Shown: positions 3,192-17,462 of the stretch, one piece after another
Layout of the letters: each line of letters opens with the position of its first letter
Position numbering within the stretch: position 1 is the stretch's first letter
NCBI GenBank assembly: GCA_900016875.1
Contig: FCNR01000050.1
Location: 1 to 64,000, forward strand
Source: Eubacteriaceae bacterium CHKCI004
GTDB taxonomy: Bacteria; Bacillota; Clostridia; Lachnospirales; Lachnospiraceae
Reading direction: 5' to 3'
Length of the DNA: 64,000 bases
Notes under the pieces: model-generated
The model's database searches: none
What the model saw: the letters and a program-made list of their open reading frames with translations, nothing else
Told to the model about the DNA's origin: nothing
Made by a program: the position numbers and the translations under genes

Positions 3192-5138
3192 ATGGCAGAG
3201 CAGGTAACACAATGGAGAAAAACATTCTGGCAGTCCCTGCGCGCGACATTTCCGGTGATACTTTTTTTCCTGACCGCATTTTTGAGCGTCTACCTTCTTT
3301 TTGGTATTCACTATGTGATGATGGTCTCGATTCTTACTGTGTTTTTTAAAACCCGCTATAAGAAGAACGATAATACTCTGATTCGCTACATACGTCTGAT
3401 TCTGGTGGGAAGTCTGCTGGTGGTGCTGGCATATGCAAGTTCTTTGAACATCTGGCTGTGTATCATTTTGAATATCACTGTGCCGTTTTGTCTGGTATTT
3501 ACCCAGAGTACGCAGTTCAAGCCTAAAGGATATTTTTCTTTTGCTATGATTTTTGTTTTCCTGTCAATGATTCCACCGGATAACCTGGAGGGAGTTGGGC
3601 GGCAACTCATTGTATTCTGGTTTTGCGTATTGCTGCTGGCAGTGTTTATCGGAGTATATTACCGTTTTTTTGCAAAACGTGGTTCGCAGAATATGACGCT
3701 GGAATATATTTTGTGTGAAATATCTGAAATGATGTTTCTGATTTTTCAGCCGGAGAAAAAGAAAGAACTGGAACACCGCTTTCGGAATTTACTCCATGAC
3801 TTTAATCAGATATCCTATCATCAGAATTTTTTCTCGGTCAGGACAAAAGAAAATCAGATATATGATATGGTCAACACTTTGATTCAGCGGTTTTCCTATC
3901 TGATTACCGATGACGAGTGGAGAAATGAGCTGGATGAAGAGGGAATTCTTCTTCTGGGACGGATCGCCACTTTTTTAAAAGAGACTGCCATGGAGCTTGA
4001 CGCGCCGTCTTATGAGAAGCAGATTAAAACGGCGCAGATGCATTTGGACCGTATGATGGTTCCGGAGGGCAGAATCCGCATTTTCTGCCGGAGCATGCTT
4101 CATATGATTATTTTGATATTGAAAACCCGGAGCGATCGGACGGAGAGATTTTCCAGGATTCACCGGATCAACTGGAGAGAAATCCGGCAGCAGATAACGA
4201 CACGTTTTTCGCTGGAGTCCTTTGAAACCCGGGTAGCCATGCGGGTGTCCGCAGTTATGACCATAAGCTGCATCATCAGCTATATTCTGCCGGTGACCCA
4301 CTCATACTGGATTCCGCTCAATGCATTTCTTCTCATCCAGCCAAGCTGTGAGGAGAGCAGCTACCGCATGAAAACAAGACCTGTAGGAACTATGATCGGA
4401 TGCTGCATCGAATTTCTGGTGCATCCGCTGCTCCCGGGAATCGTTGGCCAGCTTGCTTTTGCGCTGGTGATGATTTCGCTTATGTACTGTGCCACGCCGG
4501 GAACCTGGTATCATCCGATCTTTTCCACCTGCTACGCCCTGACGCTGGCGGGAATGACCATGGACGAGACGACCGCCATCACTCTGCGGCTGCTGTTCCT
4601 GATGGCAGCTGTGGTCATCGTATTTGTGGTAAATCGTTTCTTCTTCCCGGTGCGGAGCGAGGCGCTGTTCAGGTATAATATAAAAGCGCTGCTTCGTCTG
4701 AACCGTATTTACTGGAAAATCATCGGCAAGAATCTGGAGAGAACCCCTGATCTGTCGGTATCAGGAGAAATACTCACTTATTTTCACATGGTTTATGAGG
4801 AATGTACCGGATACCTGCGGAAGAATCCTGCTCTTCCTTCCGGCAGAGGGCTGCGTGTGGTGCTTCTGACTCTGTGGCATATGTTCTCGGAACTTGAACA
4901 GATGCATTATCTGGTAAGCACCGGAGCTGTGTCCGCCGAAGAAAAAGAGGACGCCCTGGCATTTATCACCAGAATTCGAAAAGACCTGTATCCCAGGGTG
5001 AACAGCAGAGATATCATCGGCCTGCGCCGACAGATTCATTACCGGGAACCGGAAGTAAACTATGTGTTTAACAAATATCTGATGCACGCGGAACTGCTGG
5101 GACGTTACCGGAAATGTATTCCGGGCAATGAAGGATAA
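3192..5138 (+). CDS. FUSC-family membrane protein (aromatic acid exporter-like)
   Basis: A 648-residue inner-membrane protein with two clusters of hydrophobic helices, at about residues 15-150 and 345-470. They are separated and followed by hydrophilic domains, the duplicated layout of the FUSC/YccS/AaeB family. The motif YWIPLNAFLLIQPSCEES opens the second membrane half, as in fusaric-acid-resistance-like proteins. Probably an efflux permease for organic or aromatic acids, but the substrate is unknown. ATG 3192 follows AAAGGATGG. It lies 12 bases behind the dehydrogenase, possibly exporting a product or analogue of that pathway. Confidence 0.8.
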   Translation: MAEQVTQWRKTFWQSLRATFPVILFFLTAFLSVYLLFGIHYVMMVSILTVFFKTRYKKNDNTLIRYIRLILVGSLLVVLAYASSLNIWLCIILNITVPFCLVFTQSTQFKPKGYFSFAMIFVFLSMIPPDNLEGVGRQLIVFWFCVLLLAVFIGVYYRFFAKRGSQNMTLEYILCEISEMMFLIFQPEKKKELEHRFRNLLHDFNQISYHQNFFSVRTKENQIYDMVNTLIQRFSYLITDDEWRNELDEEGILLLGRIATFLKETAMELDAPSYEKQIKTAQMHLDRMMVPEGRIRIFCRSMLHMIILILKTRSDRTERFSRIHRINWREIRQQITTRFSLESFETRVAMRVSAVMTISCIISYILPVTHSYWIPLNAFLLIQPSCEESSYRMKTRPVGTMIGCCIEFLVHPLLPGIVGQLAFALVMISLMYCATPGTWYHPIFSTCYALTLAGMTMDETTAITLRLLFLMAAVVIVFVVNRFFFPVRSEALFRYNIKALLRLNRIYWKIIGKNLERTPDLSVSGEILTYFHMVYEECTGYLRKNPALPSGRGLRVVLLTLWHMFSELEQMHYLVSTGAVSAEEKEDALAFITRIRKDLYPRVNSRDIIGLRRQIHYREPEVNYVFNKYLMHAELLGRYRKCIPGNEG

Positions 5139-5151
5139 GACTGTAAATGCA

Positions 5152-5184
5152 ACCATCCCCCGTCCATTGAGGGCGGGGGATGGT
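5152..5184. terminator. Hairpin between convergent genes
   Basis: A strong GC hairpin (ACCATCCCCCG and CGGGGGATGGT) lies in the 64 bases between the convergent FUSC and cotJC 3' segment ends. The T-tracts are weak on both sides, so bidirectional termination is likely but not certain. Confidence 0.6.
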
Positions 5185-5202
5185 GTTTGTAAAATGCCCA
5201 GG

Positions 5203-5673
5203 CTATCTCCGGCATCGCCCGTTCCGGGCGCATCCATTGCCGCAGCCGTTGTTCCCGCCTTTATCGAAGGCCGGGTTGAAGGCGTAGAAGTTCCGGCTGT
5301 TCAGATGATCCTGCACGATTCGAAGTCCTTCACCGAATCTCTGGAAATGCACGATCTCTCTGGCGCGGAGAAATTTGATGGCATCGTAGACGTCCGGGTC
5401 GTCTTTGACAAGGCGGAGAATGTTGTCGTAAGTGATCCGGGCCTTTTGTTCTGCAGCGAGGTCTTCCATCAGGTCTGCGATCGGGTCGCCGGTGGACTGG
5501 AAAGTAGCCGCGGAGAACGGCACGCCGCTGGCGGCCTGCGGCCAGAGGCCGGTGGTGTGATCCACATAGTAATCGGCGAAGCCCTGCTCTTTAATCTGTT
5601 TCACGGTAAGATTACGGGTGAGCTGATGAACGATGGTGCAGATCATCTCAATGTGGTTTAACTCTTCTGTACC
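5203..5673 (-). CDS. cotJC: cotJC 3' segment (spore-coat Mn-catalase-like protein, split gene)
   Basis: About 155 codons matching CotJC/Mn-catalase from the TEELNHIEMI motif to the C terminus. Metal-ligand type motifs EELNHIEM and AREIVHFQRF are present, along with SGVPFSAA and GDPIADLMEDLAAEQKA. The tail is Gly/Cys/Asn-rich. Conserved CotJC sequence begins at LTDIG|TEEL, but the first 62 codons are missing here and lie at 14252-14452 on the same strand. Upstream of residue T the frame runs into the end of an unrelated transporter gene and has no ribosome site, so this piece is not translated alone. Joining at the shared core (5672-5673 with 14268-14269) restores one 217-residue protein. CotJC sits in the inner spore coat. 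Confidence 0.85.
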   Translation of the reverse strand, partial: GTEELNHIEMICTIVHQLTRNLTVKQIKEQGFADYYVDHTTGLWPQAASGVPFSAATFQSTGDPIADLMEDLAAEQKARITYDNILRLVKDDPDVYDAIKFLRAREIVHFQRFGEGLRIVQDHLNSRNFYAFNPAFDKGGNNGCGNGCARNGRCRR

Positions 5674-5690
5674 TGTATCGGTGACATTAG
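5659..5690 (-). other. attR-like junction of the cotJC intervening element
   Basis: Core GG (plus-strand CC 5672-5673) inside AGGTA. The element-side arm ATGTCACCGATA (5676-5687 on the plus strand as its complement) is the inverted copy of the arm at 14254-14265. The other side is cotJC coding sequence (GTACAGAAGAG). The layout matches a serine-integrase hybrid site, with half phage-type palindrome and half target gene. Confidence 0.72.
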
Positions 5691-6211
5691 CCCGCCTGTA
5701 TGAGCTGCCGTATATGTGCTTTTTCCAGCACTGCAGCAGCGGCAAAGTATACAGCGATATTGACGACGCCTTCCGTGATCAGTCCCGGTGAGGAAGCGAG
5801 TCCGGCGGCAAAGCTGCCGTAAAGAATACTGCCCACAGCTGTGTATCCGATGACCATCCATGCCATGCTTAAGATGGCTGCCAGAAAAGTCCGCCAGTGG
5901 AAAAGGCGGAAGCTGCCGTTCTTATCAAACATGAGATGTCCTGCAATGAGAACAATAATAACTTTGATTAAGAATGTAGGAATGACCCATTGGGTAAAGC
6001 CAGTCAGAAAATCTGCCAGGGAGGAACCGAGACCGCTGGCCCAGACTGCCTCCCGCCGTCCGAAGTACGCGGCGCCAAGAAGGATTGCGGCATCGCCCAG
6101 ATGGGCGTAGCCAAGGGGAATCGGAATCTGAATGACCATGGTCATAATGCAGACGAGGGCGGTCAGCAGCGCGCCGCAGCAAAGAGAAAAAGTATTATGT
6201 TTGCGTTTCAT
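5687..6211 (-). CDS. ECF transporter S component (vitamin/precursor uptake)
   Basis: A 174-residue membrane protein with about five or six hydrophobic helices. The conserved HLGDAAILLGAAYFG segment near residue 37 is typical of substrate-binding S components of energy-coupling-factor transporters, especially the ThiW/HmpT-like group. That suggests a thiamine- or pyrimidine-precursor substrate, but this is only a resemblance. No ECF A/A'/T genes are nearby; S components usually share a module encoded elsewhere. The start follows GAGGTG. Its TAA stop lies inside the element's attachment arm, so it is the outermost gene of the element. Confidence 0.7.
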   Translation of the reverse strand: MKRKHNTFSLCCGALLTALVCIMTMVIQIPIPLGYAHLGDAAILLGAAYFGRREAVWASGLGSSLADFLTGFTQWVIPTFLIKVIIVLIAGHLMFDKNGSFRLFHWRTFLAAILSMAWMVIGYTAVGSILYGSFAAGLASSPGLITEGVVNIAVYFAAAAVLEKAHIRQLIQAG

Positions 6212-6380
6212 TTTGTCACCTCATTTTATTATTTGTATATCAGTCACTATAACATAAAACTGGCATGCTATATAGAACCAATTTGTGTTAATTGCAGAGG
6301 TCAGATTATTGATTCGATGGAGGAAAAGCGGTGATTGGGACAGGTCAGATTGTTGTGACAGATCAGATTCCGGATACGGT

Positions 6381-7250
6381 TCATCGTGTTTTACCTGGGC
6401 GGCGACGGGCGCGGCGGGCAAGCTCTGCCTGTGTTCGTTCCCACAGCTCCCGGTCGATGATGGGCGGATGGTGATTTTTTATAAAGATAAATTCTTCTTC
6501 GCCGTGGTTGGAAGCTTTGCGGTGGGTGAGGTAGTCCGGCGTGATGGTCTTTTTCTGGCAGAGATCGCCGGCATATTTTTCGTTTCTCAGAATTTTTATA
6601 ATGACGCCGGGAGACCAGCGGGCAGCGTATTTAGGCGTGAAGCCTTCTTCCAGCAGTTCCGCCGCGATTCGGCGGGCGCTTTTTCCTTCTTCTGTATATT
6701 TGTGGAAGATCCGCCGGACGATGGGGGATTCGGCATCATTGATAAAAATCTGCCCGTTCTGCACGGTGTAGCCAAGAAGATCTCGCCCAAAGACAACGCC
6801 CTGTTCCATTCTCCGCAGCTGTCCCCATTTCACCCGCTCGGATATTTTGCGGCTTTCCTCCTGAGCAAGACTGGCCATGAGAGTAAGCCGCAGTTCACCG
6901 TCACAGTCTCTGGTATCAATATTGTCCAGAATAAAAATCACGCCGACGCGCCGTTCCCGGAGCATCCGCGTGTAGGCCAGGGCGTCCACTGTATTTCTGG
7001 CGAAACGGCTCACCTCTTTTGTAAGAATTAAATCGATCTTCCCGTCCATAGCGTCGTCGATCATACGATTAAATCCGGCACGTTTTCTTGTCTGGGTGCC
7101 GCTGATGCCCTCGTCAAAATATACATTGACAAGCTCCCAGTCACTGTGCTGCCGGATATACTTGTCAAAATAGCGCTGCTGACTGGCAAGCGACTGGGCT
7201 TGTTCTCCTTTGTCGGTGGACACCCGGCAGTAGGCGGCGATTTTTTGCAT
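6381..7250 (-). CDS. Serine site-specific recombinase (resolvase/invertase + recombinase domain)
   Basis: A 289-residue serine recombinase. The resolvase domain (about 1-140) opens with AAYCRVST, with the nucleophile Ser11, and contains the conserved SRFARN. The Recombinase domain (about 155-265) carries GYTVQNGQ and WSPGVIIKILRNEKYAGD. The protein stops soon after this domain and lacks the long zinc-ribbon/coiled-coil tail of most large serine integrases. The gene lies 0.7 kb inside one end of the element that splits cotJC, the usual place for the integrase, and is the obvious candidate to excise it. ATG 7250 follows CGGAG. A Fur-like box lies upstream (7359-7377), between this gene and the divergent repeat-protein gene. 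Confidence 0.88.
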   Translation of the reverse strand: MQKIAAYCRVSTDKGEQAQSLASQQRYFDKYIRQHSDWELVNVYFDEGISGTQTRKRAGFNRMIDDAMDGKIDLILTKEVSRFARNTVDALAYTRMLRERRVGVIFILDNIDTRDCDGELRLTLMASLAQEESRKISERVKWGQLRRMEQGVVFGRDLLGYTVQNGQIFINDAESPIVRRIFHKYTEEGKSARRIAAELLEEGFTPKYAARWSPGVIIKILRNEKYAGDLCQKKTITPDYLTHRKASNHGEEEFIFIKNHHPPIIDRELWERTQAELARRARRRPGKTR

Positions 7251-7358
7251 AGAAGGCTCCGTTAAATGTATTTAATAAAAAAATATGAAAAAAGCAGGAA
7301 ATTATGTTTTTGGCAGTTCCATAAAAGAGATGGACTGAAGGATAATCGTGCCCTAAAT

Positions 7359-7377
7359 GAAAATGATAATCATTATC
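7359..7377. promoter_or_regulatory. Fur box upstream of the repeat-peptide gene
   Basis: The 19 bases GAAAATGATAATCATTATC differ from the classical Fur consensus at one position (third base). The site is 93 bases before the repeat-protein start and 109 before the divergent recombinase start, so iron could control either or both. Fur binding is inferred from the motif. Confidence 0.72.
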
Positions 7378-7407
7378 AAAAATGTTTTCCAAATCGCCAG
7401 AAATCCA

Positions 7408-7436
7408 TTGACAACCCCAGAAAATCATGTTTAAAT
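7408..7436 (+). promoter_or_regulatory. Sigma-A-like promoter of the repeat-peptide gene
   Basis: -35 TTGACA (7408-7413), a 17-base spacer and -10 TTAAAT (7431-7436), about 33 bases before the ATG at 7470. The -35 is perfect and the -10 moderate. The Fur box lies about 30 bases further upstream. Confidence 0.6.
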
Positions 7437-7469
7437 TGCTGTATAAGAAAGAAAAGGAGGTATGTAACT

Positions 7470-7898
7470 ATGGTTTATGGTGAAACAGAAGGATACGCTA
7501 AGAAGGATTCTTACAGCGATTCCTATAGTGACGGATATAGTGAAACAACAGGATACGGGGACGGTTACAGCCACGGAGATTCCTACAGTGATGGTTACGG
7601 CAAGAAAGACAGCTATGGTGATAGCTACGCAGACGGCTACAGCCATGACGGCGACTCCTACAGCGACGGCTACGGCAAGAAAGAGGACAGCTATGGTGAC
7701 AGTTACGGCGACGGCTACAGCCATGACGGCGATTCCTACAGCGACGGCTACGGCAAGAAAGAGGACAGCTATGGCGACAGTTACGGCGACGGCTACAGCC
7801 ATGACGGCGATTCCTACAGCGACGGTTATGGCAAGGGAGACAGTTATGGCGATTCTTACAGCCATGGCGACAGCTACAGCGATTCTTACGGCAAATAA
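7470..7898 (+). CDS. Tyr/Ser/Asp/Gly-rich tandem-repeat protein, putative substrate of the adjacent radical SAM and U32 enzymes
   Basis: A 142-residue protein built almost only from Y, S, D, G, H and K, with 28 Tyr and no Cys. The core is nearly three copies of a 26-residue unit (DGYSHDGDSYSDGYG, then KKEDSYGDSYG); shorter variants of DSYSDGYG flank it. There is no signal peptide or hydrophobic segment. A strong AAAGGAGG stands 7 bases before ATG 7470, with a promoter and Fur box upstream. A hairpin-T attenuator separates it from a radical SAM gene and two U32 genes, the layout of a ribosomally made, modified peptide with many core repeats. Alternatives: a Tyr-rich spore-coat structural protein, or a metal-binding storage protein. 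I do not recognise the family. Confidence 0.72.
   Translation: MVYGETEGYAKKDSYSDSYSDGYSETTGYGDGYSHGDSYSDGYGKKDSYGDSYADGYSHDGDSYSDGYGKKEDSYGDSYGDGYSHDGDSYSDGYGKKEDSYGDSYGDGYSHDGDSYSDGYGKGDSYGDSYSHGDSYSDSYGK
7632..7835 (+). repeat. 78-base coding tandem repeat, 2.6 copies
   Basis: Units at 7632-7709, 7710-7787 and 7788-7835 (partial), encoding the 26-residue repeat. The copies are nearly identical at base level, including synonymous positions, which points to recent duplication or gene conversion. Confidence 0.85.
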
Positions 7899-7936
7899 CG
7901 GGCGCTGGTATCCAAAACAGGAATATTTATGAATAT

Positions 7937-7983
7937 AAGCCTCCATGAAGATGCCGGCAGTGCATCGGAAGGGGGCTTTTCTT
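7937..7983 (+). terminator. Attenuator-type terminator between the repeat peptide and the radical SAM gene
   Basis: A stem of AAGCCTCC against GGGGGCTT, with an inner GATGCCGGCAGTGCATC arm, is followed by TTTTCTTC. It lies 39 bases after the repeat-protein stop and 32 before the radical SAM start. Partial termination here would give more substrate than enzyme. Confidence 0.65.
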
Positions 7984-8014
7984 CATTTTATATAGAAAAG
8001 GAGAATAAAAGAAG

Positions 8015-9073
8015 ATGGCTAATATTATGATGACGGACGTCTGCAATCTGAGATGTCCGTACTGCTTTGCCAATGAATTTGTAAATAAAGATACCAATGA
8101 GATCTCGGAAGAGAATTTTAACCGGGCGGTGGATTTCATCGTGGGTGACGGCAGTCACAGTTCTGTGGGTCTCATTGGCGGAGAGCCGACGGTACATTCT
8201 CAGTTTGAAAAATATCTGCGCAGGCTTATTGAGGACGACCGGGTGAAGACTGTCGTGGTGTATACCAACGGTATTCTGCTGGATAAGTACTGGGACGTCA
8301 TCTGTCATCCGAAGGTTCGGATTCTGGTAAACTGTAACTGTCCGGAGGATATCGGGGAGAAGAATTATGAGCGGCTGTGCCGGAACCTTGATTATATGAT
8401 CGAGACGCGTATGTTTAAGAAAAATGTGACCCTGGGCATTAATATGTACCAGCAGGATTTTCCGTATGCGTATATCATTGAGCTTCTGAAGAAATATCAT
8501 TTCCATCATGTGAGGGTTTCCATCACGGTTCCGAATATGGAGGACGGCAGAAACGCCGATGCTCATGTATATTTTGAGAGCATGAAACCGCGGATGTTTG
8601 AATTCTTCCATGAGCTTCTGAGCAACGAGATTATTCCGAATTACGACTGCAACAAGATTCCGTCCTGTCTGATTACTGAAGAAGATGTGGAGTCTTTCAG
8701 AAAATATGGAAAAAACCGGTACATCCATGAACATATCGGACGCAGCAATATTTCAGATAAGATCGTCAAATGTTCTCCGGTCATTGACATCCGGCAGGAT
8801 CTGACGGCGGTGCGCTGTTTTGGCCTGTCAGAGTGTACCAAGCAGGATATCCGGAATTTTTCCGGTATCCGGGAGCTGGAGAATTATTACCGAAGAACTA
8901 TTGACGCTTACGGCTGTAATACCGTTTATTCGGAGAAGTGTATTGACTGCCATGCGAGACTGGTTCAGAAATGCAACGGCGGCTGCCTTGCTTTTAAGAT
9001 CAAGGATATTCTTGCCATGCGTGATTTTTCTGAGCAGGTCGTTCATAAGCATGCCGGCGCTGCGGACAGATAG
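8015..9073 (+). CDS. Radical SAM enzyme with SPASM-like C terminus
   Basis: 352 residues. The radical SAM [4Fe-4S] motif CNLRCPYC (Cys10, 14, 17) lies at the very N terminus, followed by GGEPT near residue 55. The C-terminal third is Cys-rich (RCFGLSEC, then CIDCHARLVQKCNGGC), as in SPASM/twitch domains that hold auxiliary Fe-S clusters in peptide-modifying enzymes (PqqE, sactisynthases). The start follows AAGGAGAATAAAAGA. It is second in a four-gene unit, after a Cys-free Tyr/Asp-rich repeat protein, so C-C or C-O chemistry on Tyr/Asp/Ser/His side chains is more plausible than thioether formation. Reaction unknown. Confidence 0.82.
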   Translation: MANIMMTDVCNLRCPYCFANEFVNKDTNEISEENFNRAVDFIVGDGSHSSVGLIGGEPTVHSQFEKYLRRLIEDDRVKTVVVYTNGILLDKYWDVICHPKVRILVNCNCPEDIGEKNYERLCRNLDYMIETRMFKKNVTLGINMYQQDFPYAYIIELLKKYHFHHVRVSITVPNMEDGRNADAHVYFESMKPRMFEFFHELLSNEIIPNYDCNKIPSCLITEEDVESFRKYGKNRYIHEHIGRSNISDKIVKCSPVIDIRQDLTAVRCFGLSECTKQDIRNFSGIRELENYYRRTIDAYGCNTVYSEKCIDCHARLVQKCNGGCLAFKIKDILAMRDFSEQVVHKHAGAADR

Positions 9074-9087
9074 GGAGGACGGAACAT

Positions 9088-9975
9088 ATGGCGGAATTAT
9101 GCCTGAATCTATGCGAGGTGCTGAACGCGTCTATGCTGAAGGAAGAACGGCTGGAGCGGATCATCAGCCTTGTGATGCGAAGAAATGCGGCTGAGGAGCC
9201 TCTGACAAGAATTTATGCGGGATCTTCCTTTTGCAGCCAGTATTTTCTTCATATAAACTGGTGGGAACCGCTGCTGGCGTCCTGCCGGGAGCATCGGTGG
9301 AAGATGACGCTGACCCTTCCGGTGTTCAGCCAGAAGGATCTGAAAAAGGGAAAGGAACGGATCGGAGATATTCTTGTTTCCGGTGCCGATGTGATCGATG
9401 AGATCACGGTCAATGATGTGGGAATGCTTCTTTACATTTCCGGGGAGTGTACCAGGAAAATAAATCTGGGACGTCTGTTCTTCAAGGATGCCAGGGACGT
9501 CCGCGTCCGGGACTACGATGAGGGAATCATGACCCCGAATCTTCTGACATCCCGGGACAGTCTGCCGGCTGACTGGTCGCGGATTCATGGGATTGAACTT
9601 GACAGAATGAGCAGAGAGATTGATTTGACAGACTGTCCGCTGGAAGGAATGGTTCTCGGACTGCATGGTCCGTTTTGTTATATGTCCACGGGCAATATCT
9701 GCAAGTTCGCGTCTATCCATAAGAAGACGGAATATAAGTTCCGGCCCAACACGCCGTGCGCCATGGAGTGCGCCGGGATTTATGAGCATTACCGGGCGCG
9801 GTTCGATGGGAGAGACACGGATGTTATCCGATTCGGGAGAACGATTTATTATCTTAAAAATGACAGTCGGGTTATCGGAAAAACAGTGAATAGAACGATA
9901 TATTTTCCGGTGAGAGAGGCCGGAGAGGTGATGAGGGGAGGTGACCGGCATGAAAGTACTGGTTCCGCTCAATGA
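9088..9975 (+). CDS. U32-family protein, UbiV-like Fe-S subunit
   Basis: 295 residues. Its cysteines fall as in UbiV: Cys49 in AGSSFC, then Cys197 (GPFC), Cys205, and the CxxxC pair Cys224/Cys228 (PCAMEC). Motifs DEITVNDVGMLL and NLGRLF match the U32 barrel. UbiV pairs with UbiU to hydroxylate a ring without O2, using [4Fe-4S] clusters. Here no quinone genes are nearby and the neighbours are a radical SAM enzyme and a repeat peptide. The gene starts 15 bases after the radical SAM stop and overlaps the UbiU-like gene by 26 bases, so the two are probably coupled as a heterodimer. The hydroxylase role is inferred from the family. Confidence 0.72.
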   Translation: MAELCLNLCEVLNASMLKEERLERIISLVMRRNAAEEPLTRIYAGSSFCSQYFLHINWWEPLLASCREHRWKMTLTLPVFSQKDLKKGKERIGDILVSGADVIDEITVNDVGMLLYISGECTRKINLGRLFFKDARDVRVRDYDEGIMTPNLLTSRDSLPADWSRIHGIELDRMSREIDLTDCPLEGMVLGLHGPFCYMSTGNICKFASIHKKTEYKFRPNTPCAMECAGIYEHYRARFDGRDTDVIRFGRTIYYLKNDSRVIGKTVNRTIYFPVREAGEVMRGGDRHESTGSAQ

Positions 9976-10936
9976 TGCGGCCTATATGGAAAGGCTGGTG
10001 GAGGCGGGCGCGGACGAGCTGTATCTGGGATTTTACGATGAAAAATGGTTTGAAACATTCGGGGAATACGCGGATATCAACCGCATGTCCGGCTTTCGCC
10101 GCAATGCCAACCGCTACGACTTTGACCAGATGATTTCTCTGGCCAAACGAATCAAAACTCTGGGGCGCAGCGCTTTTGTGACTATGAACGCCAACTGCTA
10201 CAGTGAGGCGCAGATCGCCTACATGCAGGAGAATTACTTTCCTGCCATGAAGGAAGCGGGGCTGGACGGCCTGATCGTATCAGAGCTTCCTCTGGCAAAA
10301 GCTGCATTTGAGGCGGGAATTCCTACCGTGGCGAGCACCATGTGCGCCATTTACAACGAGGACATCGCAGCCGCCTATTATAACACCGGCATGCGCCGTT
10401 TCATTTTGCCGAGAGACCTGTCTCTTGATGAGATCGCTTCCATATGTCAGGCCTATGACGATGTGGAGTATGAGGTCTTCTTCATGAGAAACGGCTGTGT
10501 TCTCTCAGACTGCTACTGCCTTGGAATGCACCGGAGAGAGTGCGGCTCTACCTGCGGCTTCCTCCGCAGCCATGCCAAACAGATGGTGACCAGGGAGAGG
10601 AGTTTTGAGGAGCGTCAGGACATTGATGGCAACGATTACTGGTATAATGTACATTTCCATCATGACGCCTGCGGTATGTGCGCCCTCTACCGCATGAAAA
10701 AAATGGGTATCAGTTCTCTGAAAATTGTGGGAAGAGCGGATCGAAGTGATTCGGTTTATGAGGATATCCGGTTGACCAAGCGCAACCTGGCCATCGCCGA
10801 GGCGTGTTCTTCGGAACGGGAATATCTTGACCGTATGGAAATGCCGGCTCGCGCTCAGAAAAAATGTCTTTGGGGATTTTCCTGTTATTACCCGGAGGTG
10901 CGTTTTCCGGAAAAAACGAATAAACAGGAGAAGTGA
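9950..10936 (+). CDS. U32-family protein, UbiU-like Fe-S subunit
   Basis: 328 residues of the peptidase-U32/PrtC-like family. The barrel begins MKVLVPLNDAAYMERLVEAG. The Cys cluster FFMRNGCVLSDCYCLG with ECGSTCGF (Cys183, 188, 190, 198, 202), then HHDACGMC (241, 244), resembles the UbiU/RlhA/TrhP ligand set. KIVGR near residue 258 is the usual U32 C-terminal motif. Such proteins act as O2-independent hydroxylases on quinone precursors, rRNA or tRNA; peptidase activity is doubtful. The start chosen is ATG 9950 behind GGGGAGG; the gene overlaps its UbiV-like partner. Last gene before a terminator at 10973. Confidence 0.75.
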   Translation: MKVLVPLNDAAYMERLVEAGADELYLGFYDEKWFETFGEYADINRMSGFRRNANRYDFDQMISLAKRIKTLGRSAFVTMNANCYSEAQIAYMQENYFPAMKEAGLDGLIVSELPLAKAAFEAGIPTVASTMCAIYNEDIAAAYYNTGMRRFILPRDLSLDEIASICQAYDDVEYEVFFMRNGCVLSDCYCLGMHRRECGSTCGFLRSHAKQMVTRERSFEERQDIDGNDYWYNVHFHHDACGMCALYRMKKMGISSLKIVGRADRSDSVYEDIRLTKRNLAIAEACSSEREYLDRMEMPARAQKKCLWGFSCYYPEVRFPEKTNKQEK

Positions 10937-10972
10937 AATAAGGAATGAGAGAAGCGGTCCGCCGCAGGTGGA

Positions 10973-11008
10973 GGGGCTGGCGCATGAATGCGTCAGTCCC
11001 CTGTTTTG
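10973..11008 (+). terminator. Terminator of the peptide-modification cluster
   Basis: Stem GGGGCTGgCGCAT / ATGCGtCAGTCCCC with a two-base loop, followed by TGTTTT. It ends the operon 36 bases after the UbiU-like stop. Confidence 0.8.
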
Positions 11009-11031
11009 GTTCACAGGAAATGTGGCGGTTT

Positions 11032-11099
11032 AATTCTGTTTCCCGGCCCATTGTTCCGAAAGCTTAATTCTGTTTCCCGGCCTGTTGTTCCGAAAGCTT
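11032..11099. repeat. 34-base tandem duplication at the 3' end of treR
   Basis: Two adjacent 34-base copies (11032-11065 and 11066-11099), beginning AATTCTGTTTCCCGGCC and ending GTTCCGAAAGCTT, differing at two positions. The second copy touches the treR stop codon. No clear function. Confidence 0.8.
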
Positions 11100-11823
11100 A
11101 ATTCTTCTTTCTCGTGGCCGTGGTCTGAAAGGAAAAGTAGTCTGGCCGGTGGCGGGAATGGGTGTACTCGAACATGATGCCATCGTCGTTGAAAGTCTGA
11201 CCGGTGACCACCGCCAGACAATTGTAGTCGCCCAGCTCCAGGTAGGATTCATCGGCGGGGGTGACATGTTCCACGGTCATGGTTCTTCGGCTGGTGACGA
11301 TCAGCATTTCCAGTTCATTTTCAATATATTCATATATGGAGGTCTCGGCGATGGTTTCCGTGAGACCGGGAACAAGAGACTTCAAAAAAAAGTTTGTATC
11401 AAGAATCAGAGGTTTCCCGTCCAGATACCGGACACGGCGGACATAGTACAGTTCATCCCCCGGCTGAAAGCCAGTCCGGCGGGAGAGACGTTCGTCACAG
11501 GTGATTTCGTCAAACTGCACAACTTTTGTGATAGTTTCCCGGTGATTGCGCCGGGCCGATTCCTGGAAAGATTCGATACCGCCCATGAGGAAACTGTTTG
11601 TGGCGACAGGCTGATAGATGACACGGACGCCTTTGCCGTGAAGAGACTGGACGTATCCGTCGTCAGCCAGCATGCCAATGGCGCGGCGGACTGTGTTACG
11701 GGAACAGTGGTAGATGTCCACCATGGTATTTTCTGATGGAAGCATCTGTTGATATTCGTATTCCATAGTTTCTATTTTTGCTTTCAAATCTTTATATATC
11801 TCATTAAATTTTATTCTGGGCAT
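11098..11823 (-). CDS. treR: Trehalose operon repressor, GntR family
   Basis: 241 residues. The N-terminal winged-helix GntR domain (about 1-70, with PSENTMVDIYHCSRNTVRRAI) is followed by a UTRA effector domain (about 90-235). Order and sequence match TreR, which senses trehalose-6-phosphate. The start is ATG 11823 behind AAGGAG. It is divergent from treC, with two identical palindromes CTTGTTTAAACAAG between them, the expected TreR operators; autoregulation is likely. No trehalose PTS gene is in the window, so uptake would be encoded elsewhere. The gene lies within the cotJC intervening element. Confidence 0.88.
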   Translation of the reverse strand: MPRIKFNEIYKDLKAKIETMEYEYQQMLPSENTMVDIYHCSRNTVRRAIGMLADDGYVQSLHGKGVRVIYQPVATNSFLMGGIESFQESARRNHRETITKVVQFDEITCDERLSRRTGFQPGDELYYVRRVRYLDGKPLILDTNFFLKSLVPGLTETIAETSIYEYIENELEMLIVTSRRTMTVEHVTPADESYLELGDYNCLAVVTGQTFNDDGIMFEYTHSRHRPDYFSFQTTATRKKN

Positions 11824-11885
11824 AAGAACTCCTTTATTTGTTTCAAACTTTACTATCATTATAACAGAAAAAATAGAAAATACAA

Positions 11886-11899
11886 CTTGTTTAAACAAG
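11886..11899. promoter_or_regulatory. TreR operator 1
   Basis: Perfect 14-base palindrome CTTGTTTAAACAAG between treR and treC, identical to the copy at 11918-11931 and 32 bases from it centre to centre (about three helical turns, same DNA face). Assigned to TreR by position. Confidence 0.78.
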
Positions 11900-11913
11900 A
11901 ATGAAAAAACTTC

Positions 11914-11942
11914 TTGACTTGTTTAAACAAGTGTGATATAAA
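11914..11942 (+). promoter_or_regulatory. treC promoter with TreR operator 2 in the spacer
   Basis: -35 TTGACT (11914-11919), a 17-base spacer and -10 TATAAA (11937-11942). The second palindrome CTTGTTTAAACAAG (11918-11931) overlaps the -35 and spacer, so a bound repressor would block RNA polymerase. Confidence 0.8.
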
Positions 11943-11991
11943 TAAATCATCAAACTTGTTCTTCAGGACAAAAAAGAAATGGGTGAAAACA

Positions 11992-13659
11992 ATGAACAAT
12001 TTCAGCGATAAAGTGATTTATCAAATCTATTTAAAATCCTTTAAAGATTCCAATGGAGACGGAATCGGAGACATCAGGGGAATTACAGAACAACTGGATT
12101 ATCTGCAAGCGCTGGGCGTGGATTATCTGTGGATTACTCCTTTCTTTGTCTCTCCTCAGAATGATAACGGTTATGATGTGGCGGATTACCGCAGCATTGA
12201 TCCGATTTTCGGCACTATGACAGATCTGGAAGAACTGATTGACGAGGCGAAGAAACGGGGAATCGAGCTGATGCTCGATATGGTCTTCAATCATACTTCC
12301 ACCAGCCACCAGTGGTTTCGCAAAGCTCTTGCCGGAGATAAAAAATATCAGGATTATTACATTTTCAAAGACGGTACGCCGGATCAGCCGCCTACAAACT
12401 GGGAATCCAAATTTGGCGGCCCGGCGTGGGAATATGTGCCTCATCTGAGGAAATGGTATCTGCATTTGTTCGATGTGAGTCAGGCGGATCTGAACTGGGA
12501 GAATCCTCAGGTGAGAGAAGAACTGAAAGAAGTTATCCGTTTCTGGAAAGAAAAAGGCATCGGAGGATTCCGGTTCGACGTGGTCAACCTCATCTCCAAA
12601 CCGGAGAGCTTTGAGGATGACCAGATCGGAGACGGCCGACGATTTTACACAGATGGCCGCCACGTGCATGAGTTTCTAAAAGAGCTGACAGCCGATACCG
12701 GTCTGGATCAATATGTGACGGTAGGAGAAATGTCTTCCACCTCTCTGGACAACTGTATCCGTTATTCCAGTCCGGCAGAGAAAGAGCTCAGTATGTGCTT
12801 CAATTTTCATCATCTGAAAATTGATTATAAGGATGGAAAGAAATGGGAGCTCATGGAACCTGATCTGATGAGGTTAAAAGGATTGTTTGAGACCTGGGAG
12901 ACAGGTATGCAGGAAGCGGGAGGATGGAATGCTCTGTTCTGGTGCAACCACGATCAGCCGAGAATCGTCAGCCGTCTGGGAGACGAGGGCCGCTACTGGA
13001 AAGAATCTGCTAAAATGCTGGCAGCTTCCATTCACCTGATGCGCGGCACTCCGTACATTTACCAGGGAGAGGAAATCGGCATGACCAATCCACATTTTGA
13101 CGACATCCATCAGTACCGCGATGTGGAAAGCCTGAATTATTACAATATTCTGCTGGAACAGGGCAAAACCAGCAGGGAAGCCATGGAAATCCTTCAGGCG
13201 CGATCCAGAGATAATGGCCGGACGCCGGTACAGTGGAACGCCGGTGAAAACGCCGGATTCACGGAAGGAATCCCGTGGATCAGCCTTGCATCGAATTACC
13301 GGGAGATCAACGTGGCCGCACAAATGAAAGAGTCGGATTCCATCTGGGCCTTCTATCGGAAATTAATCCGGCTTCGCAAAGAAAAACCGGTGATCGCAGA
13401 GGGACAGATTGCTTTTATGGAAAAGGAAAATGAAAATGTGCTGGCCTACCGCCGCACTCTTGGAGAAGAAGAACTGATTGTTTTCAATAATCTGACCGGG
13501 CAGACGACAGAAGTTTGTCTGGAAGATTCCTGGAAAAATTACCGTATACTGCTGACAAATTACGAAGGGGAAGAAAGCGGAACGGAACAGAACTTAAAAA
13601 ATGTATCAGATGACCGGTGGACATTGCGCCCATTTGAGACTCTGGTGCTGGAAAAATAA
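11992..13659 (+). CDS. treC: Trehalose-6-phosphate hydrolase (GH13)
   Basis: A 555-residue cytosolic GH13 enzyme, normal length for phosphotrehalase/oligo-1,6-glucosidase. GH13 regions are visible: DMVFNHTS (region I), GFRFDVVNL with the nucleophile Asp near residue 200 (II), TVGEMSS with the acid/base Glu (III), and NHDQPR with the transition-state Asp (IV). It would split trehalose-6-phosphate into glucose and glucose-6-phosphate. The assignment to TreC over a general alpha-glucosidase rests on the divergent treR and its operators. A second GH13 paralogue lies at 42401. ATG 11992 begins MNNFSDKVIYQIY, the usual family start. Confidence 0.85.
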   Translation: MNNFSDKVIYQIYLKSFKDSNGDGIGDIRGITEQLDYLQALGVDYLWITPFFVSPQNDNGYDVADYRSIDPIFGTMTDLEELIDEAKKRGIELMLDMVFNHTSTSHQWFRKALAGDKKYQDYYIFKDGTPDQPPTNWESKFGGPAWEYVPHLRKWYLHLFDVSQADLNWENPQVREELKEVIRFWKEKGIGGFRFDVVNLISKPESFEDDQIGDGRRFYTDGRHVHEFLKELTADTGLDQYVTVGEMSSTSLDNCIRYSSPAEKELSMCFNFHHLKIDYKDGKKWELMEPDLMRLKGLFETWETGMQEAGGWNALFWCNHDQPRIVSRLGDEGRYWKESAKMLAASIHLMRGTPYIYQGEEIGMTNPHFDDIHQYRDVESLNYYNILLEQGKTSREAMEILQARSRDNGRTPVQWNAGENAGFTEGIPWISLASNYREINVAAQMKESDSIWAFYRKLIRLRKEKPVIAEGQIAFMEKENENVLAYRRTLGEEELIVFNNLTGQTTEVCLEDSWKNYRILLTNYEGEESGTEQNLKNVSDDRWTLRPFETLVLEK

Positions 13660-13666
13660 AAGAGCA

Positions 13667-13717
13667 GGGCCTGTCTCACGCAGGAAGAGCGTGGGCAGGC
13701 CCGTTTGTATCTCTTTT
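13667..13717 (+). terminator. treC terminator
   Basis: Hairpin GGGCCTG..CACGC / GCGTG..CAGGCCC followed by GTTTGTATCTCTTTT, starting 8 bases after the treC stop. Confidence 0.75.
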
Positions 13718-13734
13718 CTTCCAGAAAAACATTC

Positions 13735-13932
13735 CTAAAGCTGGTAGGCAATCAACGCAATCTTTTTACCGGTTTCCTGCCGGATGGACTCTTCAAGAGC
13801 GGCAATTTTTCTGGAACAGGATTCAGACAGCGCCGCCACAGGTCTCGCCGTGGTAGTGTAAAGAAGTGCGGAATTATTACCTGTAGTCGGAGCAGCTTTA
13901 TATTGAATTTTGGTCGAAGTACCATAATACAT
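13735..13932 (-). CDS. Small protein of unknown function (65 residues)
   Basis: Begins MYYGTSTKIQYKAAP at ATG 13932, behind a very strong ribosome site (AAAGGAGGAATTCCC). Thr/Ala-rich in the first half and amphipathic helical in the second (SRKIAALEESIRQETGKK). No membrane segment or recognised domain. It lies inside the cotJC element between treC and tRNA-Gly, on the cotJ strand. A recombination directionality factor or a small spore protein are possible ideas, with no direct support. Confidence 0.55.
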   Translation of the reverse strand: MYYGTSTKIQYKAAPTTGNNSALLYTTTARPVAALSESCSRKIAALEESIRQETGKKIALIAYQL

Positions 13933-14008
13933 GGGAATTCCTCCTTTCTGCAGCATAGCATGCGCGAAAAACAAAAAAATATACAAAAAAAGACATATGC
14001 CCTGATAA

Positions 14009-14079
14009 AGCAGATAACGGGAGTCGAACCCGCCTCTTCGGCTTGGGAAGCCAATGTTCTACCGATGAACCATATCTGC
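14009..14079 (-). tRNA. tRNA-Gly (anticodon CCC)
   Basis: Minus strand. Acceptor stem GCAGATA/TATCTGC, D-arm GTTCATCGGTAGAAC, anticodon stem-loop GGCTTCCCAAGCC with loop TTCCCAA (anticodon CCC), T-arm CGGGTTCGACTCCCG, and discriminator U as expected for bacterial tRNA-Gly. CCA is not encoded. It lies 190 bases inside the attL-like end of the element that splits cotJC. Confidence 0.92.
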
Positions 14080-14251
14080 ACACACCAGCCGGAGCGTGTT
14101 CCTCCGGGAAAATCTAATGTGTGAACCGAGACACCTCCGATACAGTGTTACCCATACTCCTCCCAGAACTGGTGATATATTTATTATAGCACCGGACAGC
14201 CAAAATGCAAGGAAGGATTTTGGAGTATCGCAGCCGATCCGCTTGCCGCCG

Positions 14252-14452
14252 TCATGTCACCGATATACCTATATCGGTCAATATCCCCATGACTTCCCGG
14301 TACGGCATGGCAAATCGCTGGGAAAGATAGCGGAGGGAGGCTCCGGTTTCGCCATCCGGACCTCCGAACTGCGTAATGATCGCTTTCGCCATCTGTGCGT
14401 CCGTCCGGCGGATGTTTACCGGATACTGCAGTCTTTTTTCATAATTAAACAT
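14252..14452 (-). CDS. cotJC: cotJC 5' segment (split gene)
   Basis: The first 62 codons of CotJC: MFNYEKRLQYPV, TQFGGPDGETGASLRYLSQR, and MGILTDIG, exactly where conserved CotJC continues with TEEL. Here the frame instead reads four element-encoded residues (ISVT) and stops. The ATG overlaps the cotJB stop (TAAATG), the normal cotJ layout, so this is the native operon position. The other 155 codons are at 5203-5673 on the same strand. In this configuration the product would lack the ferritin-like fold; removal of the intervening 8,596 bases restores an uninterrupted gene whose junction reads LTDIGTEEL. Confidence 0.88.
   Translation of the reverse strand: MFNYEKRLQYPVNIRRTDAQMAKAIITQFGGPDGETGASLRYLSQRFAMPYREVMGILTDIGISVT
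14253..14283 (-). other. attL-like junction of the cotJC intervening element
   Basis: Core GG (plus-strand CC 14268-14269). The cotJC side reads TTGACCGATATA, and the element side TATATCGGTGACAT is the inverted copy of the arm at 5676-5687. The junction is itself a near-palindrome (ACCGATATA-GG-TATATCGGT). Confidence 0.72.
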
Positions 14453-14710
14453 TTAACAATCCCCCTCCCAAGGCCAAGGCTGTGTCGCCCATTTCCACGT
14501 ATCATCGTGTGATGCTTCATTTAGTGTGAGCGGTCCGAAACGCACAGAATATTCGTGAAGTGCCTGCTGCCTGGCTTTATTGAAATGATGAAAAAATTCA
14601 AGAGCTTCCGCGTCGTCCGGGTGGGTGTCCAGGTACAGTGAGGCGTCCAGAGCGGCGAAGCTTACCGCATCGATATAAAATAAAAGATTTTTCTTTTCCA
14701 TCTTGGACAT
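14453..14710 (-). CDS. cotJB: Spore coat protein CotJB
   Basis: About 85 residues, matching CotJB in LYLDTHPDDAEAL near residue 28, RFGPL, and the Trp-rich end WKWATQPWPWEG. Second gene of the cotJ operon, whose products are inner-coat proteins made in the mother cell. The ATG at 14710 shares its A with the cotJA stop (TAATG), so translation is coupled; an in-frame ATG at 14722 sits too close to the Shine-Dalgarno. The stop is followed at once by the cotJC ATG. Confidence 0.88.
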   Translation of the reverse strand: MSKMEKKNLLFYIDAVSFAALDASLYLDTHPDDAEALEFFHHFNKARQQALHEYSVRFGPLTLNEASHDDTWKWATQPWPWEGDC

Positions 14711-14904
14711 TATTTCATGCATCTCCTTCCCGTAAAAGGTAAATTGAGTTCTTTAAAGATTGTGCCCTCCATGAGTGCGTCTTCTGCTTTATATATATTT
14801 TTCCAGCTCTGCCACGGCACGTAGGCCATAGCCAGCGGAAGCGAATCTACATTTTTAACGGCAGTTTGATGCTGATGCTCAAAGCAGGTATTCATTCCTT
14901 CCAT
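14710..14904 (-). CDS. cotJA: Spore coat-associated protein CotJA
   Basis: 64 residues with the CotJA signature LAMAYVPWQSWKNIYKAEDAL and a short hydrophobic/basic end. First gene of cotJABC. The start is ATG 14904 behind AAAGGAG. The roughly 200 bases upstream, shared with the divergent CobW-like gene, should hold a mother-cell (SigE-type) promoter; I could not place one with confidence. Confidence 0.88.
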   Translation of the reverse strand: MEGMNTCFEHQHQTAVKNVDSLPLAMAYVPWQSWKNIYKAEDALMEGTIFKELNLPFTGRRCMK

Positions 14905-15105
14905 GTCCGGCTCCTTTCGGATAATTTGTACAATATCAGTATATGTAGAAACAGAGTGAGTGCGACAGGGAATCGCAGGAGCCACGATAAAAGTGTCATA
15001 ACAGAGTATTGTCTTATGGATAACCGCCCCTTGCATTTTTGAAAAAAAAGGTTACAATATATTAGATGTTTTGTAAACGTTTTAAAATGGAAAGGAATGA
15101 GAAGC

Positions 15106-16245
15106 ATGACAAAGATAGATATTATATCCGGTTTCCTGGGAGCCGGTAAAACCACGTTGATTAAGAAGCTGATCGCAGAGGCGCTGCAGGGACAGAAGGT
15201 TGTACTCATTGAAAATGAGTTCGGTGAGATCGGTATTGACGGCGGCTTTTTGAAAGAGTCCGGCATTCAGATCAATGAGATGAATTCCGGATGCATCTGC
15301 TGTTCTCTGGTTGGAGATTTTAACGCGGCGCTCAAAGATGTACTGTCCCAGTACGAGCCGGACCGGATCATCATTGAGCCGTCAGGCGTTGGCAAGCTGT
15401 CCGATGTTATCAAGGCGGTGCAGAAAGTTGTGGATGGAGAAAATGTGGTACTTGACAGCTACATTACTGTTGCGGATGTGAAGCGCGCGAAAATGTATCT
15501 GAAGAACTTCGGCGAGTTCTACAAGAACCAGGTACAGTATGCCAGCACGATCATTTTAAGCCGTACTCAGGATGTGAAGGAAGACAAACTGGAGAAAACT
15601 ATTGAGCTGATCCGCACGCTCAATGACCGCTCCCCGATTGTCACAACCCCATGGGAGGATATCACCGGGGCGCAGATTCTTGAAGTTATGGAAGGAAAGA
15701 ATGATTTCGCTGAAGACCTTCTTCGCGAGGCGGAGATATGCCCGGAATGTGGTCACCATCACCATGAAGGCGAGCACTGCCACGACCACGAGCATGATCA
15801 TGAACATGACCACGGCCATGAAGGCCATGACCATGAAGCACACCTCCACGATGGCGGGCACTGCCATCACGAAGAGCACCATCACGACCATGATCATCAT
15901 GATCACTGCGGCTGCGAGGGACACGATCACCATCATCATGGTCATGAGGGCCATCACCACGCCGATGAAGTGTTCACAAGCTGGGGAAAAGAGACGCCGA
16001 AGAAATTTACGGAAGAGCAGGTTCGGGGTATTCTTGAGAAGCTGGCTGATGAAGACAGCAGAGAGTACGGTATTATCCTGAGAGCCAAGGGTATTGTGCC
16101 GGATGAAAACGGTAAATGGCTGCATTTTGATCTGGTTCCTGGCGAGGAAGAGGTACGGTACGGTGCTGCGGAATATACGGGAAGGATCTGTGTCATTGGT
16201 TCTGAGCTGAAAGAAGATAAGCTTGCGGAGCTGTTTGGATTATAG
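15106..16245 (+). CDS. CobW/COG0523-family GTPase with poly-His metal-binding segment
   Basis: 379 residues. P-loop GFLGAGKTT at residues 9-17, the metal-binding CxCC motif GCICC near residue 67, and the Walker B-like IIEPSGVG near 90. A His/Asp/Glu-rich stretch (about residues 217-285, with many HDH, HHH and HEG runs) probably buffers or delivers Zn, Co or Ni. A CobW C-terminal domain follows. These proteins insert metals into target enzymes using GTP. The start is ATG 15106; the in-frame ATG 15097 abuts the ribosome site. Followed 19 bases later by a second family member. The metal is not determined by sequence; no Zur-type box was recognised. Confidence 0.85.
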   Translation: MTKIDIISGFLGAGKTTLIKKLIAEALQGQKVVLIENEFGEIGIDGGFLKESGIQINEMNSGCICCSLVGDFNAALKDVLSQYEPDRIIIEPSGVGKLSDVIKAVQKVVDGENVVLDSYITVADVKRAKMYLKNFGEFYKNQVQYASTIILSRTQDVKEDKLEKTIELIRTLNDRSPIVTTPWEDITGAQILEVMEGKNDFAEDLLREAEICPECGHHHHEGEHCHDHEHDHEHDHGHEGHDHEAHLHDGGHCHHEEHHHDHDHHDHCGCEGHDHHHHGHEGHHHADEVFTSWGKETPKKFTEEQVRGILEKLADEDSREYGIILRAKGIVPDENGKWLHFDLVPGEEEVRYGAAEYTGRICVIGSELKEDKLAELFGL

Positions 16246-16264
16246 AATCTGACGGAGGATAGTT

Positions 16265-17236: not shown

Positions 17237-17264
17237 AAGAGATAGAAAATCAACGAAAATATAC

Positions 17265-17293
17265 TTGTTTTTTGCTGGGAAATGTACTATACT
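17265..17293 (+). promoter_or_regulatory. Promoter of the thiamine-precursor transport operon
   Basis: -35 TTGTTT (17265-17270), a 17-base spacer and -10 TATACT (17288-17293), just before the TPP riboswitch. Confidence 0.6.
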
Positions 17294-17310
17294 TACCCCA
17301 ATTGGATAAT

Positions 17311-17400
17311 ATAAATCAGGGGAGTTCATGAGATGAGCTGAGAGTAAGGTGACACCTTAGACCCTTTTAACCTGTTGGATAATGCCAGCGTAGGAAGTAT
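17311..17400 (+). ncRNA. TPP riboswitch (THI element)
   Basis: Conserved THI-box blocks in order: CAGGGGAG, CTGAGAGTAAGG, TTAGACCC, ACCTG, GGATAATGCCAGCGTAGGAAG. It binds thiamine pyrophosphate. The downstream hairpin at 17416-17441 with a T-run is its expression platform, so high TPP should terminate transcription of the downstream ABC operon. Confidence 0.95.
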
Positions 17401-17415
17401 TTATGATGTTTTTTG

Positions 17416-17441: not shown

Positions 17442-17462
17442 AGTTCAAAGGAGGAAGATAAG

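Follow-up and report, generated by a model that had tools for sequence, protein, structure and literature searches.

What is the product of an operon in which a gene for a tyrosine-rich repeat protein precedes three genes for putative iron-sulfur (Fe-S) enzymes? The question is raised by positions 7470–10936 of a 64,000-nucleotide stretch of Eubacteriaceae bacterium CHKCI004 (contig FCNR01000050.1), referred to here as the window, where the genes lie in the order REP (the repeat protein), a radical S-adenosylmethionine (SAM) enzyme, V and U. The four-gene unit is conserved and under selection, and its radical SAM enzyme represents an unusual family that often accompanies aromatic-rich repeat proteins, with a UbiU-related U32 protein beside it. 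We consider the case evenly balanced that the operon encodes a Tyr-rich multi-repeat protein together with enzymes that modify it post-translationally without O2; that REP and proteins like it are substrates is likely.

The repeat protein and its neighbouring enzymes

REP (7470–7898, + strand; ATG at 7470, stop codon at 7896–7898), the presumed substrate, is a 142-residue Tyr/Gly/Ser/Asp repeat protein with 30 Gly, 29 Ser, 28 Tyr, 28 Asp and no Cys, built from 3.7 tandem copies of a 78-nucleotide unit encoding 26 residues (89% matches), much as the initial annotation of this DNA had described it. The repeats begin at the start Met, and all 27 gaps between successive Tyr residues are of 4, 6 or 7 residues. 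In the near-identical contig of Candidatus Anaerobutyricum stercoripullorum (L024) the protein is 116 residues long, exactly 26 fewer and in frame, and two diverged homologues have 149 residues (L025; Tyr gaps of 4, 6 and 7, one of 10, and a single Cys) and 180 residues (L026; Tyr gaps of 4 and 6 only). Pairwise nonsynonymous divergence (dN) among the homologues is 0.19–0.25, with synonymous divergence (dS) too high to be computed and an ambiguous alignment of the repeats. The L025 and L026 homologues, these dN values, the in-frame difference in L024 and an AAGGAGG preceding the ATG all indicate that REP is a real, selected gene. It has no match in Pfam, and its five NCBIfam matches are of low complexity and far below cut-off. 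On the matter of a leader peptide, the repeats start at the Met and none of the four operon genes encodes a protease or a transporter.

The adjacent gene (8015–9073, + strand) does encode a radical SAM enzyme with a SPASM-like Cys-rich C-terminus, as had been proposed. The product has a PF04055 domain (E 2.6e-16) and a CxxxCxxC motif at residues 10–17 whose C10, C14 and C17 are invariant in 12 of 12 aligned proteins, placing it in the radical SAM superfamily; C212, C218, C253, C268, C309, C312 and C324 are invariant in the same 12. There is no Pfam match to the SPASM domain PF13186, and no named maturase cut-off is reached among the best 25 of the 52 NCBIfam families matched, where the top score is 52.7 bits to MoaA (cut-off 284); viperin (NF038283) scores 40 bits against a cut-off of 180. 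A defence-system identity was considered and set aside, there being just weak viperin matches (43.5 bits in PADLOC).

The last two genes had been described as overlapping U32 genes and as a UbiV/UbiU-like pair, and it is the half of this description concerning U that stands. U (9950–10936, + strand) overlaps V (9088–9975, + strand) by 26 nucleotides and is a U32-family protein (PF01136, E 2.7e-30, 105.8 bits, cut-off 22.4). Its profile aligns with E. coli UbiU alone at an hhalign probability of 97.7% (E 2e-12), and its best NCBIfam match is UbiU (NF047963) at 48.3 bits, below the cut-off of 440, indicating a relative and not UbiU itself. The available text of PMC6747719 describes UbiU–UbiV as a heterodimer with cluster ligands CX6CX16CX38C in UbiU and CXnCX12CX3C in UbiV. 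The corresponding spacing in U is CX6CX11CX38C, differing in the middle gap, and the four Cys, predicted to be ligands, are invariant in 12 of 12 proteins (the alignment took the window U from 9968, leaving out its first 6 residues). The ATG at 9950 is preferred over a GTG at 9941 as the U start because GGAGGTGA precedes it. V is an uncharacterised Cys-rich protein of 295 residues that matches nothing in Pfam at E up to 1 or in NCBIfam at E up to 10, and it is not a U32 protein by sequence (hhalign of V against U profiles, 0.3%). Its four Cys (C49 and C205-X18-C224-X3-C228) are invariant in 12 of 12; profile comparison ranks UbiV over UbiU and aligns V C49 with UbiV C39, a similarity that is not significant. 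The likeness of V to UbiV is confined to position, size and Cys pattern.

The initial annotation held that absence of these genes together in other genomes would count against it, and the survey of other genomes did not refute it on this count. The radical SAM gene is present in 4 of 24 genomes of the genus (the window's own, G321, G312 and G308; loci L024, L025 and L026 in the last three), and all four have REP, radical SAM, V and U in identical order. Repeat numbers vary between the operons, and the L026 flanks, which by eye we take to be ilvE-like and glgB-like genes, differ from those in the window. Purifying selection is indicated by dN of 0.09–0.30 over 12 comparisons, of which one gave a dS of 3.8 and the other 11 no computable dS.

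The genes also occur together beyond the genus. An uncultured Acetatifactor metagenome-assembled genome (L028; enzyme at 52%) has an open reading frame (ORF) of 83 codons with 27 Tyr lying 1.9 kb before V, U and the enzyme. Its cluster (4856–17715) includes two GT9 glycosyltransferases and an AMP-binding enzyme identified by Pfam, as well as genes that we assume by eye to be GNAT-like (the one scanned falls just under cut-off) and heptose-synthesis-like; the position of the Tyr-rich ORF amid glycosyltransferase and sugar genes suggests that the product is glycosylated. In an Erysipelotrichaceae genome (L027; enzyme at 65–66%) a 60-residue ORF with 16 Tyr and a PF00550 acyl-carrier-like gene precede the enzyme at a contig end. 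A second contig of that genome (L074) starts with the L028 gene set (GNAT-like, V, U, GNAT-like, AMP-binding), so that the two may be one cluster; further on, two additional radical SAM genes are followed by a Trp/Tyr repeat protein (6901–7530), whose C-terminal end is CFI-box-like (32.3 bits, cut-off 40), and then by a second V'/U' pair (28–30% identical). In the genus f101, all five loci from three genomes have, in this order, a second radical SAM gene, a U32 gene (Pfam E 5.6e-11 for one protein), a Tyr/Asn/Trp repeat protein and the family enzyme. Clostridia, suggested initially as the range to be searched, is too narrow, because the enzyme family is also found in viral contigs.

The enzyme family in bacteria and phages

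A profile built from six relatives of the radical SAM enzyme recovers 13 open-frame candidates (including the member L030) at 95 bits or more, and other viral radical SAM enzymes score at most 46 bits. The enzyme occurs in 5 of 398 genomes of a phylum sample and 4 of 391 of a class sample, with the window's own genome counted in each. Members of the family occur in the vicinity of Tyr/Trp-rich repeat proteins in some seven lineages, which include phage tail modules, and next to U32 proteins in two or more distinct clades and on one T4-like phage contig; on the tree, the combined Tyr-rich and U32 label requires two changes.

Several of these loci adjoin tail genes. The viral contigs L046 and L047 have tail genes (Baseplate_J and Mu Gp48 were identified for L047) and a Tyr-rich ORF with the enzyme directly after it, and in L047 this ORF has two Tyr per 11 residues, with 36 of 41 gaps being of 3 or 8 residues. 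In G629 (L054) the enzyme is followed by a 94-residue ORF and then a Tyr/Cys/His repeat protein, adjoining Baseplate_J-type tail genes. On viral contigs L082 and L083 the proteins encoded 5' of the enzyme have 65 Tyr in 226 residues and 20% Tyr, and a GT8 gene is two genes further. On L085, which encodes a T4-type terminase, the enzyme adjoins a U32-like gene, whose product aligns with the f101 U32 protein at 98.6% (hhalign) and scores 22.0 bits in Pfam, where the cut-off is 22.4. The family genes of L048 and L086 contain three in-frame TGA and seven in-frame TAG codons, respectively, and were outside the profile scoring; these phages look recoded, and rereading with TGA or TAG as a residue gives no Tyr-dense adjacent ORF. 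Named phage records contain no match at E ≤ 1e-10 to the L083 or L047 enzymes, and five partial matches (25–32% of the query) to that of L085. Three further candidates were set aside: a Chlorohelix plasmid relative (26%) without a Tyr-dense neighbour, and L163 and L164 (25–26%) with neither a Tyr-dense nor a U32 neighbour.

Relatives of the L085 U32-like protein are found elsewhere in phages. A Mosigvirus 'peptidase' of Escherichia phage moskry (L171, 4189–5349) matches it and is near arabinose 5-phosphate isomerase and GlmU-like genes, and is perhaps part of a DNA sugar modification; matches in the cyanophages P-RSM1 (L172) and metaG-MbCM1 (L173) have a gene annotated as a tail fibre no more than about 3 kb away.

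The association with Tyr-rich proteins was counted over 24 family loci, excluding the window and the repeat fetches L031, L076 and L077 and including related loci and the doubtful L086. A neighbourhood was scored as Tyr-dense if some 60-residue stretch of an ORF within 4 kb has at least 18% Tyr, which applies to 16 of these 24 loci and to 10 of 75 other viral radical SAM loci; at a threshold of 20% the counts are 12 of 24 and 3 of 75. U32 neighbours are present at 10 of 18 higher-scoring loci (L074 counted), one of seven others and two of the 75 controls. The 11 U32-positive family proteins are themselves members of the search profiles used, which makes that count circular, and the fair support is therefore a Pfam check in which 13 of 18 proteins (15 of U32 type, 3 of V type) match PF01136 at E ≤ 0.01.

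Expression signals and the cotJC element

A sigma-70-like promoter (TTGACA-18-TAAATT; 7408–7437, + strand) precedes REP, and TTGACA is also found 5' of REP in L025 and L026; such matches are equally common in shuffled sequences. Between REP and the enzyme genes there is a stem-loop with a T-rich stretch (7937–7985, + strand; z -2.8), putatively an attenuating terminator, with equivalents in L025 (different arms, z -3.7) and L026 (similar 5' arm, z -4.1). It is absent from the output of a simple terminator scan, and its position fits a substrate made in excess. The terminator predicted to close the operon corresponds to a stem-loop with a T-rich tail at 10973–11000 (+ strand), of a kind equally common in shuffles.

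There is also a perfect 7-1-7 Fur-type box at 7364–7378, 91 bp 5' of REP and 113 bp 5' of the start of a divergent recombinase gene, and it is the sole perfect one in the 3.99-Mb genome; an 18/19 match lies at 7359–7377, beginning at the first position of the region delimited initially. The box is also present in the near-identical L024, and L025, L026, L027 and L028 have none ahead of REP or the Tyr-rich ORF, their best sites there having 5–6 mismatches. Three one-mismatch sites in the genome are all within ORFs. A two-mismatch box lies about 93 bp 5' of a feoA-feoA-feoB run and a three-mismatch box 5' of a feoA-feoB pair (the feoA genes at both loci being presumed by eye), and a third feoB-like gene has no nearby box, the best site having 4 mismatches. 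Two-mismatch sites are expected about once per 20 kb, and there are three in the 64-kb window.

The operon is cargo of a gene-intervening element of about 8.57 kb (5685–14255) that splits the spore-coat gene cotJC into a C-terminal piece (5206–5685, - strand; Mn-catalase family) and an N-terminal piece (14255–14452, - strand) adjoining cotJB and cotJA. The element contains an ECF transporter S component (5687–6211, - strand), a relative of which is also upstream of the operon in L025, a serine recombinase of 289 residues (6381–7250, - strand; 450 residues in L025), the operon, a GntR regulator and treC; its junctions have in common a short candidate core, ACCGATAyAGGTAy (12 of 14 positions). 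This is a sporulation gene split by a recombinase-bearing element, as are gerE by gin (PMC5595907), spsM by SPbeta (PMC4191935) and sigK by skin (PMC5025042), according to the available text of those sources. The window differs in that the gene is cotJC and the cargo is a modification operon; for a putative excision in the mother cell, the recombinase is short. In the open-licence PubMed Central (PMC) literature, work on Epulopiscium was the one match on cotJC, intervening, sporulation and recombinase.

The stretch of cotJC across the split site is matched in 14 of 24 genus genomes and broken near residue 64 in eight of these, with the pieces on one contig in G000, G299, G300, G302 and G321 and on separate contigs in G301, G307 and G310. 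Continuous close matches (at least 85%) are found in G304, G305, G309 and G312, and further continuous matches at 60–67% look like paralogues; G306 breaks elsewhere and G308 gives one piece only. Of the eight split genomes two (G000 and G321) have the radical SAM gene and six lack it, so the operon is a variable cargo, and cotJC is a recurrent insertion site that is mostly occupied without it. L025 (G312) has an intact residue-64 site, two recombinase genes and a cotJC broken into three, the operon lying between the first two pieces with the 450-residue recombinase. To the right of the element, a gene at 15097–16245, whose product we take by eye to be a CobW-like GTPase, has a long His-rich stretch, and a relative is near the cotJ genes in L024 and L025.

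Readings of the operon and known systems

How might these genes act together? We suggest that REP is the common substrate of the operon enzymes and is present in excess over them, because a putative terminator stands between REP and the enzyme genes. V and U would form a two-cluster Fe-S heterodimer like UbiU–UbiV. That the U32 reaction is an aromatic hydroxylation we judge slightly less probable than the contrary; the best single guess at this reaction, and the likeliest, would be hydroxylation of the Tyr ring to 3,4-dihydroxyphenylalanine (DOPA), with prephenate as the likely oxygen source. In the available text of PMC11574389, the characterised U32 oxidases carry out O2-free hydroxylation of quinone precursors or RNA and their chemistry is described as unresolved; in anaerobic ubiquinone synthesis the oxygen comes from prephenate, the enzyme step being without direct evidence. 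The radical SAM enzyme would introduce a second modification on the REP repeats, for which a carbon-centred crosslink involving Tyr or an adjacent position is the likeliest form. Because leader, protease and transporter genes are all missing from the operon, the product is predicted to be a polymer without a leader, perhaps with a structural, adhesive or metal-binding role, and not a small secreted peptide. The fullest version of this proposal is an anaerobic counterpart of mussel glue, in which a UbiU/UbiV-like pair makes DOPA without O2, the radical SAM enzyme crosslinks, and phage relatives act on tail-associated repeats; we offer it tentatively, as a picture that would more probably fail than hold in all its parts.

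A number of observations weigh against joint modification of REP by these enzymes. Profile comparison did not place V among the U32 or UbiV proteins, with hhalign probabilities of 6.6% and 4.5% to UbiV (NF047965) and no NCBIfam match. The four genes are not an obligate set, as several family-enzyme loci have no U32 neighbour, and V/U pairs (25–48% identity) occur without the enzyme in eight of the nine family genomes with V, i.e. in all eight others. At seven of these eight enzyme-free loci there is no Tyr-dense neighbour, and the eighth (L014) passes at 20% Tyr through an ordinary-looking 490-residue ORF whose Tyr stretch lacks repeats; six loci viewed by eye have no common neighbour gene, and the first substrate of V/U may thus be another. 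Eight of the 24 family loci lack a Tyr-dense neighbour, including the close relatives L030 (39%) and L162 (46%) as well as L048, L084, L085, L163, L164 and L055, and L086 is counted among both the 16 and the 12 through a non-adjacent 104-residue ORF that is probably unrelated. By eye, the 60-residue Tyr-rich ORF of L027 probably belongs to a longer stretch that spans more than one frame. All of the controls are viral and many family loci are bacterial, and loci of one group are not independent. Finally, two of the controls (L115 and L116) share matches to U32-like, radical SAM and Cys/Tyr-repeat proteins; L115, which was viewed, is a phage module that encodes two U32-like proteins, three radical SAM enzymes and a 381-residue protein of CDCNYCT repeats.

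The enzyme-free V/U pairs would be expected if the radical SAM enzyme alone modifies the repeats, by a cyclophane, an ether or a Tyr-centred crosslink, and V/U act elsewhere, e.g. on tRNA or a quinone-like molecule. The Tyr-rich loci L054, L046/L047 and L082/L083, which have the enzyme and no U32 match, fit this explanation and count against a joint system, and known radical SAM enzymes crosslink aromatic residues, as in darobactin (available text of PMC9055067). It does not account for U32 genes, of two types, that accompany family enzymes and aromatic repeats in two or more distinct clades, nor for the second repeat protein of L074 having its own V'/U', and on the whole we consider it rather unlikely. 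Weaker still is the case for an iron-responsive catechol (DOPA) metallophore or an iron-binding sink. DOPA would chelate Fe(III), and the genome's only perfect Fur-type box stands before REP, with weaker boxes at two of three feoB-type loci; the absence of such a box from L025–L028 and from the third feoB-like gene, the frequency of two-mismatch sites, the possibility that the box serves the divergent recombinase, the cost of three Fe-S enzymes under iron starvation and the lack of a transporter make this unlikely.

Tyr-rich spore coat proteins such as CotC are known, and REP could be an ordinary structural protein of this kind, a CotC-like coat protein or surface polymer whose adjoining enzymes are not its modifiers. 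SpoIVA is found in five of five host genomes tested, so that all may sporulate, and in the window genome, L024 and L025 a spore-coat gene encloses the operon. The tie to cotJC belongs to the element and not to the operon, since the operon neighbours in L026 are not cotJC; moreover, gene order is kept over diverged hosts, the promoter is sigma-70-like, and on viral contigs that carry tail genes, where there is no spore, the same enzyme family also has repeat proteins nearby. We regard an ordinary structural protein of this kind as quite improbable. The poorest candidate is a viperin- or MoaA-like small-molecule enzyme with coincidental neighbours: the MoaA and viperin matches noted above are far under their cut-offs and confined to the N-terminal core, and the SPASM-like Cys-rich C-terminus and the repeat-protein neighbours speak for something else, making this explanation very hard to credit. 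O2-independent modification of REP by its neighbours is the best reading.

If correct, the operon would encode the first protein-directed U32 oxidase within the literature covered, extending U32 enzymes to proteins and adding a class of radical SAM-modified aromatic repeat proteins in bacteria and phages. A U32 pair with a simple, repetitive and probably soluble Tyr substrate would provide an easily assayed O2-independent ring hydroxylation, and the gene sets in distant bacteria, partly in phages, hint at a little-known O2-free route to modified, perhaps adhesive or metal-binding, proteins. No description of a Tyr-repeat/radical SAM/U32 system was found among the matches listed, by title and opening of the abstract, from the open-licence PMC literature, which does not include subscription papers and preprints.

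By sequence criteria the operon is assigned neither to UbiU/UbiV nor to a named class of ribosomally synthesized and post-translationally modified peptides (RiPPs), because the tested cut-offs are not reached. Like the U32 oxidases UbiU–UbiV, TrhP and RlhA, it has a U protein, nearest to UbiU and with two of its three Cys spacings, in an adjacent gene pair with a V of UbiV-like Cys layout; it differs in the score of U (48 bits against 440), in the lack of significant similarity between V and UbiV, and in that quinone precursors or RNA are the substrates of the characterised members, as stated in the available text of PMC11574389. With the SPASM RiPP maturases PapB, GrrM/OscB, DarE and HxsB/HxsC it shares a radical SAM core and SPASM-like Cys motif beside a ribosomal substrate, whereas the window has no leader and no N-terminal recognition domain, a protein-length Tyr-repeat substrate and U32 partners. 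The His-Xaa-Ser system HxsABCD combines a radical SAM pair with a repeat substrate as in L074, where one enzyme is nearest to HxsC (130 bits, cut-off 268) and the other matches several families including HxsB (114 bits, cut-off 370); the L074 substrate has Trp/Tyr repeats and V'/U' are added, and the single radical SAM gene of the window operon belongs to another family. Mussel-type adhesives, in which DOPA is formed with O2, and CotC-like coat proteins have similar low-complexity repeats rich in Tyr, Gly, Ser and Lys, and in contrast to the mussel adhesives the window operon has the Fe-S enzymes of anaerobes.

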